Assembly: GCF_964186625.1 (NCBI RefSeq)
Contig: NZ_OZ075108.1
Coordinates: 3,051,001 to 3,115,000, forward strand
Reading direction: 5' to 3'
DNA: 64,000 nt
DNA from: Asticcacaulis sp. MM231
GTDB taxonomy: Bacteria > Pseudomonadota > Alphaproteobacteria > Caulobacterales > Caulobacteraceae
Part shown: piece after piece, positions 1,546 to 3,599 of the stretch
Numbering within the stretch: position 1 is the first letter of the stretch
Layout: every line of letters starts with the position of its first letter
The notes under the pieces: generated by a model
What the model was told of the DNA's origin: nothing
The model's input: the letters and a program-made list of their open reading frames with translations, nothing else
Database searches by the model: none
Translations under genes and position numbers: made by a program

Positions 1546-1973
1546 TGCTCAGGTTTGAGGTCACGACAGACAAGGCGCGGATCGATTTCGACGCGGTCTA
1601 TCGTTTCCTCAACGGAGAGTCCAATTGGGCCGAGGGCATTCCGCGCGACCTGTTCGACAGGGCGATGCGGAATGCCCTTTGCTTTGCCGGCCATCTCGAA
1701 GGCGAGCAGATCGCCTTTGCCCGCGTCATCACCGATTACGCCACCTTCGCCAATCTGGTCGATGTCTTCGTGGTGCCGGAGTATCGCGGTAACGGCTACG
1801 CCACGCGTCTGCTGGAAGCGGTGTTCGCGCATTCGGACCTGCAGGGCCTGCGCCGTTTCACGCTGGCGACGCGTGACAAACATGCGCTCTATGTTAAGTT
1901 CGGTTTCCACGCCCCGCTGATGCCGGAAACCCTGATGGAACGCTACTTTCCGGATATGTACAAGGCGACCTGA
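1545..1973 (+). CDS. GNAT family N-acetyltransferase
   Basis: A 142-residue single-domain GNAT protein, expected to move an acetyl group from acetyl-CoA to an amine; the substrate is unknown. The acetyl-CoA pyrophosphate loop (motif A) is seen as VVPEYRGNGYATRLL with RGNGYA at residues 81-86, followed by the usual Y-x-K-F-G-F segment (YVKFGF) near the C-terminus. The start is a GTG that overlaps the stop of the GH3 gene by one base, and the stop overlaps the ATG of the esterase downstream, so translation is probably coupled across all three genes. Acetyltransferases of this short type are common and their presence in a sugar operon does not by itself define a role. Confidence 0.85.
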   Translation: MLRFEVTTDKARIDFDAVYRFLNGESNWAEGIPRDLFDRAMRNALCFAGHLEGEQIAFARVITDYATFANLVDVFVVPEYRGNGYATRLLEAVFAHSDLQGLRRFTLATRDKHALYVKFGFHAPLMPETLMERYFPDMYKAT

Positions 1974-2752
1974 TGCGCTACCTGATCGTGATTTTGGCCC
2001 TCTTTTTCGCGCCGGCCGCTCTGGCGGAAGACTACCAGAGTTCGCCGCCGCGCCAGCCAGCAGCGGAAAAAGACTGGGGTCCGTGGCTTGGGCCTTATCG
2101 CGCGGGCATCGTCGCCAAGATGGGGGAGGATTTCGGCGAGCAATATATCTATGCGGCACAAAACGCAGCCCTGCCGCCGCCGGCACCTTCTGAAAAGCGC
2201 GTGGTTTTCATCGGCGATTCGATCACCGACCGCTGGAATCTGGCGAGGTTCTTTCCCGGCAGGCCCTACGTCAATCGCGGCATCGGCGGACAGGTCAGCC
2301 CGCAGATGCTGGTGCGTTTCCACGCCGATGTGGTGGCGCTCAAACCGAAGGCCGTGGTGATCCTGGCCGGCATCAACGATATCCACGGCGCCTTGCAGGT
2401 CGAGACCGAGGCGCAGATCGCCGCCAATTACCGCGCCATGGCCGAGATCGCCGAGGCCAACGGCATCAAGCCGATCTTCACCCTGCTGATTCCGGTCAAT
2501 AACTATACGCCCAACGCCGCCACCATGCTGGAGGAGCGCAGACCGGAACGCGTCGCCTGGCTCAATGCGTGGCTGTCGGGCTTCTGCGCCGATCATGGCT
2601 ATAGCCTGATCGATTACGGTCCGTTGCTGCGCGACGACAAGGGGCTGCTGAAGGCGGAATACACCTCCGACGGCATCCATCCGAACGACGCGGCCTACGC
2701 CGTCATGGCGCCACTGGCCGAGGCCGCGATTGAGAGAGCGCTGAAGCAATGA
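1973..2752 (+). CDS. Secreted GDSL/SGNH-family esterase
   Basis: A 259-residue SGNH hydrolase with an N-terminal signal peptide (cleavage expected after ALA, about residue 18), so it acts in the periplasm or outside the cell. The four SGNH blocks are visible: GDS with the nucleophile Ser83 (block I), Gly105 in NRGIGGQ (block II), GxND as Gly133 and Asn135 (block III), and the Asp233/His236 pair in DGIHPND (block V). Such enzymes often deacetylate sugars or lipids. Lying directly behind a beta-glucosidase in a TGATG-overlapping unit, a carbohydrate-esterase role (removing acetyl groups from plant oligosaccharides) is the likeliest inference. The extended shape with block V near the end resembles the platelet-activating-factor acetylhydrolase-like branch. 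Confidence 0.87.
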   Translation: MRYLIVILALFFAPAALAEDYQSSPPRQPAAEKDWGPWLGPYRAGIVAKMGEDFGEQYIYAAQNAALPPPAPSEKRVVFIGDSITDRWNLARFFPGRPYVNRGIGGQVSPQMLVRFHADVVALKPKAVVILAGINDIHGALQVETEAQIAANYRAMAEIAEANGIKPIFTLLIPVNNYTPNAATMLEERRPERVAWLNAWLSGFCADHGYSLIDYGPLLRDDKGLLKAEYTSDGIHPNDAAYAVMAPLAEAAIERALKQ

Positions 2753-2760
2753 ACCTTATA

Positions 2761-2815
2761 CCTCCCCGCTTGCCGGGGAGGGGGACCATTCAGCCCTTGC
2801 TGAATGGTGGTGGGG
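2761..2815. repeat. Left palindromic end of DUF559 element
   Basis: Two adjacent hairpins: 2761-2781 (8-bp stem, 5-nt loop, core CCTCCCCG/CGGGGAGG) and 2785-2808 (10-bp stem ACCATTCAGC/GCTGAATGGT, 4-nt loop), followed by GGTGGTGGGG at 2806-2815. The outermost 18 bases recur in inverted orientation at 3246-3263 and the GGTGGTGGGG block recurs inverted at 3181-3190. The hairpin is partly coding: it supplies the last residues and the stop codon of the DUF559 gene. Confidence 0.8.
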
Positions 2816-3170
2816 TATCTTGCTGGCTTCTTTCCAGAGCCAGAAGCCAAACTCCATCGGCCACAGCATCCGGATTTTGAAGAACTTCCGCGGCTGAAAC
2901 ACGATAGGTTTCAATGCCTTCGTTACGAAACCTAATATCGCGAATTTCATCGCGCATTCTATGCGCATCGTAGCCATGATGACCGCCATCAACTTCGACA
3001 GCCAGGCGCGCCTTGCGGCAATAAAAGTCAAGGATGTAAGGTCCGATCGCTTGTTGGCGTTTGAAAACCAAACCCGATGAGCGATCCTTGAGTCGCTCCC
3101 ACAGCAAGAACTCAGGTGGCGTCAACTTGCGGCGCATTTGACGCGCCAGAGCGATCTTGCGTTCCGTCAT
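2790..3170 (-). CDS. DUF559 endonuclease-like protein
   Basis: A 126-residue DUF559 protein, a family related to very-short-patch-repair (Vsr-like) and PD-(D/E)XK endonucleases. The nuclease core is visible as Asp48 in YILDFYC and Glu59-x-Asp61 in LAVEVDGGHH, with the N-terminal block LTPPEFLLWERL typical of the family. Substrate and biological role are not established for the family. Oddly, the C-terminal residues DTPPPFSKG and the stop codon are encoded by the palindromic repeat that bounds the gene, and matching repeats in inverted orientation lie just upstream of its start. This makes the gene plus repeats look like one unit of about 500 bp, set between the GDSL gene and zapA. Confidence 0.85.
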   Translation of the reverse strand: MTERKIALARQMRRKLTPPEFLLWERLKDRSSGLVFKRQQAIGPYILDFYCRKARLAVEVDGGHHGYDAHRMRDEIRDIRFRNEGIETYRVSAAEVLQNPDAVADGVWLLALERSQQDTPPPFSKG

Positions 3171-3180
3171 AAGTCAGAAA

Positions 3181-3263
3181 CCCCACCACCACGCCTTCGG
3201 CGCGGTCCCATGGCTTGCGAAAGCTATACTTTCGCTGACGCCAAACCCCGGCAAGCGGGGAGG
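3181..3263. repeat. Right palindromic end of DUF559 element
   Basis: Mirror image of the left end. CCCCACCACC (3181-3190) and CCCCGGCAAGCGGGGAGG (3246-3263) are exact inverted copies of blocks at 2806-2815 and 2761-2778. Between them is a further hairpin at 3211-3243 (outer TGGC/GCCA, inner GCGAAAG/CTTTCGC). The arrangement resembles a REP-type bounded element. Confidence 0.78.
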
Positions 3264-3272
3264 TATTAGAAA

Positions 3273-3599
3273 CTAAGCCCCCATAAGCCTTTCAAGGCGG
3301 GCGGCGGCATCGGCAATGGCAAAGGCCGCCTTGCGTTCCATTTCATGCGCGCCGGCGTTCATGCGGGCATTGACCGAGTTGGCCTCATCCAGTTGCGCGC
3401 GCAGATCCTGCATTTCGTCGATCATCAGTAGCGCCGCCATCAGGAACAAACGCACCTCGCCAATGGCGCCGACATCCGACACCACCATCTCGACATGCTC
3501 GTCGAACTTGCGCGCCAGTTCCTGCACGCGGCCTTCCTGACCGTCGGCGCAGCCGACCGTATAGGGCTTCTGGTTGACCCTGACCGTAACCTCACCCAT
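3273..3599 (-). CDS. zapA: Cell division protein ZapA
   Basis: A 108-residue ZapA protein, which binds FtsZ in the cytoplasm and promotes bundling of the Z-ring. The N-terminal beta-strand segment (VTVRVNQKPYTVGC) and the following helices with a C-terminal coiled coil (from about residue 55) match the family in order and length. It is the second gene of a two-gene unit: the stop of the upstream coiled-coil gene overlaps its ATG by one base. This pairing is the ZapA-ZauP arrangement described in Caulobacter crescentus, where the two proteins act together to focus the Z-ring. The unit is divergent from tkt. In many proteobacteria 6S RNA lies behind zapA; here the DUF559 element follows and no 6S-like structure was recognised by eye. 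Confidence 0.9.
   Translation of the reverse strand: MGEVTVRVNQKPYTVGCADGQEGRVQELARKFDEHVEMVVSDVGAIGEVRLFLMAALLMIDEMQDLRAQLDEANSVNARMNAGAHEMERKAAFAIADAAARLERLMGA

Follow-up and report, generated by a model that had tools for sequence, protein, structure and literature searches.

We found that the DUF559 gene in the window, the 64,000-nt stretch of Asticcacaulis sp. MM231 DNA analysed here, lies inside a 515-bp unit (window positions 2755-3269) in which two-hairpin repeats are inverted around the intact gene, each repeat being composed of an outer hairpin, hp1, and an inner hairpin, hp2. This unit is probably a minimal mobile repeat element, whose DUF559 protein would be a hairpin- or junction-directed endonuclease working on its own flanking repeats. 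The argument is built on the anatomy of the unit, the dispersal of its repeats, its presence or absence at orthologous sites, the fit between repeat type and nuclease clade, the purifying selection on the protein and its predicted fold; from these observations we infer three things: DUF559 drives the dispersal, the nuclease cuts the repeats, and repair of the breaks copies the element in. The first-pass annotation had compared the locus to RAYT/REP-like single-gene units that spread repeats. The dispersed units and the polymorphism of the sites support this comparison, while mobility driven by DUF559 stays a conditional part of it.

The left repeat unit occupies positions 2755-2822 of the plus strand and follows the order hp1-GGGACC-hp2-GGTGGGG, with hp1 at 2761-2781, hp2 at 2785-2808 and a tail running from hp2 to about 2822; 41 distinct units of this pattern (type A) were present among the loci collected at that stage. 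The DUF559 gene (2790-3170, minus strand) encodes a PD-(D/E)XK/Vsr-like endonuclease of 126 aa. Beyond it stands the inverted right unit (3174-3269, minus strand), which was defined by the inverted-arm match and the DNA fold and comprises an inner arm (3176-3191), hp2′ (3188-3206), an extra hairpin (3212-3242), hp1′ (3246-3260) and an outer arm reaching to 3269. The right hp1 is shortened, reading CCCCGGCAAGCGGGG with TTTGG inward. Pairing between the outer arms (2755-2778 with 3246-3269) extends over 24 nt at 96%, and that between the inner arms (2805-2820 with 3176-3191) over 16 nt at 94%, while the left hp2 is a perfect 10-bp hairpin (2785-2794 with 2799-2808, 100%). The DNA fold gave z = −5.15 for the left unit, which forms two adjacent hairpins, and −3.30 for the right one. 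The element is located at 3.05 Mb of the 4.65-Mb genome, between a GDSL lipase gene (1973-2752, plus strand) and zapA (3273-3599, minus strand), both with their 3′ ends towards it.

The mirror-image blocks described at first pass are thus borne out by the pairing of their arms and by the flank inverted-repeat score of 21, compared with a maximum of 14 at the 402 positions of the same flank geometry in the rest of the 64-kb window. When flanks were shuffled between DUF559 loci, a control which itself contains shared repeats, the score of 21 exceeded the 95th percentile (18) and stayed below the 99th (29). The proposed size of about 500 bp also held, with the limits moved from 2761-3263 to 2755-3269. 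As had been noticed, the left hairpin encodes the end of the protein: the stop codon (2790-2792) and the last codons lie inside the left hp2. The accompanying suggestion that gene and repeat evolved together draws little from this overlap, which is no rule because the ORF ends inside the repeat in only 16 of 65 elements (before the 3′ arm in 37, beyond it in 12); it draws more from the fit of the repeat type to the DUF559 clade.

The MM231 genome bears seven DUF559 genes, and palindromic repeats of several sequence types were seen by eye on both sides of all seven. The flank scores stood out for four of them (L026, 53; L022, 42; L027, 34; the window element, 21) and were at the control level for three (L023, 13; L025, 12; L021, 11). 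A further locus of 207 bp, L005, carries no gene and joins window-like left and right ends around a short spacer. A genome search with the 18-bp outer block of the first-pass annotation gave 49 matches at up to three mismatches versus 2 for the reversed control; the block is dispersed, and the repeats are not confined to this gene.

At L021 (G000:C1:803024-803335), as at L223 of G019, the DUF559 gene lies upstream of a ribD-like gene, so named by eye. The L021 frame is open through the 3′ repeat, giving 361 aa from stop to stop, and long frames were also seen at several other DUF559 places of the genus. G017 and G022 are without an insert at the L021 site.

Among 41 genomes (25 of Asticcacaulis and 16 of the same order), DUF559 was found in 35, with 0-10 genes per genome and 140 places in all. 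The flank test covered 106 loci (99 in relatives and seven in MM231), which gave 113 domain matches; 112 were tested, L090 being left out for a short flank. The results showed an inverted similarity between the two flanks, with a median of 26.25 versus 10 for shuffled pairing and with 49 of the 112 domains above the 99th control percentile. Direct comparison of the flanks also gave raised scores (median 13, with 20 of the 112 domains above the same percentile), because palindromes match both ways. A common plan recurs in the stronger cases: the outer hairpin has a CTCCCC-like arm, the linker reads GGGACC, TGGC or similar, the inner hairpin varies in sequence, the tail is rich in G, and the whole arrangement is inverted around the DUF559 gene. 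The median outer length of the elements was 509 bp (n = 65).

The same arrangement extends beyond the genus. The 60 loci that remained of 80 after removal of 20 Asticcacaulis loci, mostly from Sphingomonadales and Caulobacterales, had a median flank score of 24 versus 11, with 17 above the 99th percentile and 31 above the 95th. A class-wide sample contained DUF559 in 80 of 241 genomes, and the 30 best-scoring loci gave a flank median of 15 versus 10, with 8 above the 99th and 14 above the 95th percentile. In two genomes, clusters of 2-3 DUF559 copies with repeats between them were observed (L102, G010:C29; L150, G024:C12), which suggests local multiplication.

Comparison of orthologous zapA loci, which bears directly on the mobility suggested at first pass, showed that the gene does not occupy the same locus in all relatives. 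The nearest genome, G017, whose ZapA is 99% identical, is without DUF559 at all seven sites where MM231 has it. At the window site, both flanks can be aligned with G017 (416/450 and 508/527 identical positions), and the 34-bp gap between them holds a single 27-bp hp1 palindrome. A lone hp1 was likewise found at the orthologous sites of L026 and L005 in G017 and of L109. No clear hairpin was seen at the empty G017 sites of L021 and L022, and the L027 site is clean: a 14-bp sequence that G017 has once stands in MM231 as a duplication on either side of the element. At the L023 site, G017 has a gene-less inverted pair. Elsewhere, the DUF559 domains of L080 (G007, with a stop) and L104 (G010) are 97% identical, and the homology of their flanks stops near the element ends. 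Within single genomes, copies of the same clade lie in different flanks (L071/L073 of G003, 88% identical; L096/L097 of G009, 83%). Taken together with the dispersed units, these comparisons make the dispersal of the repeat elements well supported.

The L025 site (G000:C1:2701209) was seen to differ in another way: at L213 of G017 the same flanks enclose a different sequence, 438 bp long and with an open frame of 112 aa, and the site in G024 (L225) measures 426 bp.

The mechanism we propose is as follows. The nuclease would recognise the hairpin unit and cut at or near it, and repair of the break would copy gene-bearing or gene-less units to new places. The protein would act in cis on the gene-bearing unit of roughly 500 bp, and gene-less inverted pairs or lone units would be its substrates in trans; in this way DUF559 would maintain and disperse its cognate family of two-hairpin repeats, as is thought for RAYTs and REPINs. 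The preferred route resembles homing: an element elsewhere would supply the sequence for repairing a break within or next to a lone hp1, such that the lone hp1 copies at the sites of relatives would be the homing targets. Because the outward-facing arm is the same at the two ends of an element, any element could serve to fill a broken hp1. Conversely, the lone hp1 copies may be deletion scars, left when an element was lost between its hairpin arms, and not targets at all.

A second route is that DUF559 acts like a transposase: the unit would be excised or copied by way of a hairpin intermediate and inserted at a staggered target cut that leaves duplications. This is a variant of the mechanism just proposed, so that the odds of the two overlap; by itself we hold it possible but rather unlikely. 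The 14-bp duplication at L027 suits such a step. Clear end duplications were found in only 2 of 65 elements, however (14 and 24 bp), and a clean empty site is available only for the 14-bp one; in the other case, L109, the right flank is not syntenic. Over the 65 elements, there was no general excess of end duplications (mean 5.7 versus 5.1 in the control), and several of the "empty" sites hold a lone hp1, which is better suited to homing or deletion. The 14-bp duplication and the lone-hp1 sites thus point in different directions as to the route.

The repeats are also abundant without the gene. The strict type-A pattern occurs in all 25 genomes of the genus (3-124 copies, 30 of them in MM231), whereas the reversed control gave 0. 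In G018, seven gene-less convergent pairs were found with 110-141 bp from start to start (133-141 bp in six of them), and several have similar spacers by eye. In G017, another recurrent arrangement was noticed as well, in which the two repeats of a pair diverge and their starts lie about 43-55 bp apart (L323-L326). The hp1 stems covary: among the 11 distinct 28-nt units listed from the type-A search, the three inner pairs not fixed by the pattern had 12 double-change cells versus 4.1 after shuffling, and 99.1% of the cells are paired. Two other measures on these 11 units, the number of double-change pairs and further pair types, were not above the shuffles.

This abundance bears on a reading in which DUF559 is a passenger: the repeats would be mobile alone, through another enzyme or through replication slippage at hairpins, and the gene would have been trapped among them because it repairs hairpins or helps the cell to tolerate them. 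The repeats do outnumber the DUF559 genes, gene-less pairs exist, and genomes of the genus with more DUF559 genes do not visibly have more type-A copies. Moreover, G005 has 25 type-A copies and no DUF559 gene at all, which is a possible case of repeats outliving their own nuclease. Against the passenger reading, at least 11 convergent pairs 390-560 bp apart were seen by eye among the matches listed, each of them over a DUF559 place. All 11 of these gene-sized pairs, which come from G002, G003, G004, G007, G008, G009, G010 and G018, have DUF559 inside, although in two it is broken by stops. A search limited to Y1 transposases gave no Y1_Tnp match in MM231 and matches in only four of the 25 genomes of the genus, leaving 21 without one. 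Finally, the repeat type follows the nuclease tree, as described below, and we therefore consider the passenger reading improbable.

With a quick tree built from 112 DUF559 domains (103 columns), the repeat type required 8 changes where the minimum is 7 and the shuffled mean 29.9, with none of 200 shuffles as low, a fit to which near-copies contribute. Type labels were restricted to the 48 of the 112 rows in which strict patterns gave the same type left and right of the gene; the C-type alone needs 7 changes. Counts of dispersed copies differ between types. The G-type repeat has 14-37 copies in the five genomes with a G-clade DUF559 and 0-2 in the other 20, but these five carriers may form one clade, so that the test would amount to one event. 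The E-type has 82 copies in G003, which holds two intact genes and one broken gene of this type, 27 in G008, 13 in G007 and 3 in G010, compared with one match in one genome for the reversed control. There are exceptions: MM231 has the E-type gene but a single pattern match, G019 has 7 copies and G023 has 6, and G015 has 24 with a gene that is only a clade neighbour. The H-type repeats lie almost exclusively beside their own gene (17 matches in five genomes). Judged by these sequence patterns, some types show a clear link between nuclease and repeat, and others a weak one.

The window protein matches PF04480 in a profile search (E = 2e-22), and its predicted fold is of the Vsr/EDxHD type within PD-(D/E)XK. 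In 50 aligned rows, R13, W24, D48, E59, H65 and D74 are invariant. We chose 18 pairs for dN/dS; three were saturated, and the remaining 15 gave ratios of 0.04-0.30 (L080/L104 yielded none). By this codon-based estimate, purifying selection keeps the DUF559 protein. That it is an ordinary Vsr-type mismatch-repair endonuclease, with the repeats serving as bidirectional terminators, is very improbable in view of the 0-10 copies per genome, the absence of the gene at 7/7 sites in the nearest genome, the inverted-repeat flanks far above background and, at the window locus, neighbours (the lipase gene and zapA) that include no cytosine methyltransferase.

We then compared the element with known systems. 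REP-type repeats are common in bacterial chromosomes. In the available portions of three papers (PMC3116915, PMC8266576, PMC3733652), REP palindromes and REPINs are described as occurring alone, in inverted pairs and on either side of an enzyme gene; a genome has several such families, and each family goes with an enzyme lineage of its own. Their spread is attributed to the RAYTs. The DUF559 repeats behave alike: they, too, occur singly, as inverted doublets (the seven gene-less pairs of G018) and around the gene, and their families are tied to the nuclease lineage (8 changes against the minimum of 7). There are also differences. The enzyme is a PD-(D/E)XK DUF559 nuclease and not an HUH tyrosine transposase, and the DUF559 unit has two hairpins where a REP has one. 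In addition, the type-A units have no GTAG tag at the hairpin foot: neither the hp1 foot nor the linker of any of the 41 units contains GTAG or CTAC, CTAC occurs in the 3′ tail of one, and GTAG lies elsewhere in nine. The portion of PMC3116915 available presents RAYTs as single-copy genes without mobility of their own, whereas related DUF559 copies are present at several sites per genome. We conclude that the DUF559 element is organised like the REP/REPIN-RAYT systems but is not a member of them.

Other likenesses are partial. Known EDxHD/Vsr-like homing endonucleases are located in introns or inteins, or are free-standing in phages. The DUF559 protein resembles this group, exemplified by I-Bth0305I, in its predicted fold, but it sits between hairpin repeats that also multiply without the gene. 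With MITEs and insertion sequences the element shares terminal inverted repeats, gene-less miniature copies and site polymorphism; it differs in that DUF559 is the only gene inside, in the lack of a known transposase and in the rarity of clear duplications (2/65). The CGTC-tagged REPs are likewise alphaproteobacterial palindromic repeats, for which, according to the accessible part of PMC3733652, a dedicated transposase was not found in a 2013 survey; they are described there as having a stem of 8-9 bp that begins with AT, and a tail of CCA. When a pattern was derived from that partial description and applied without a positive control, it matched 0 of the DUF559 loci scanned, and the DUF559-flanking repeats are built differently.

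If the proposed mechanism is true, DUF559, a widespread family still annotated as a "protein of unknown function", gains a role as the mobiliser of a class of alphaproteobacterial repeats, and a very small nuclease-plus-hairpin system becomes available for direct testing. It would also suggest that REPIN-like systems evolved more than once. A wider reading, which we put forward tentatively and rate at somewhat below even chances, is that the alphaproteobacterial DUF559 proteins are the enzymes of a large, undescribed class of repeat-propagating elements, in which a stand-alone PD-(D/E)XK nuclease would recognise a two-hairpin unit and spread both this unit and its own gene by cutting palindromes and copying into them, and that they thereby form a second, independently evolved REPIN-like system without an HUH or DDE transposase.

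In the literature searched, which included few subscription papers and no bioRxiv preprints, there was no report of DUF559 between dispersed hairpin repeats, and there the type of enzyme found in these scattered gene-plus-repeat units had not previously been linked to such repeats. The available portions of PMC12907096, PMC9403480 and PMC12308824 contain no mention of this arrangement. In its accessible part, PMC12308824 describes segments with transposase and DUF559 genes as recombination hotspots, and that of PMC12907096 ties a Caulobacter DUF559 protein, VsrA ("Vsr-like"), to DNA damage in cells that have lost a cytosine methyltransferase. The proposed mechanism, if true, also bears on this protein: three Caulobacter DUF559 loci, L264, L284 and L294, were seen by eye to have hairpin units in their flanks, and their flank scores are 49, 18 and 26, respectively.
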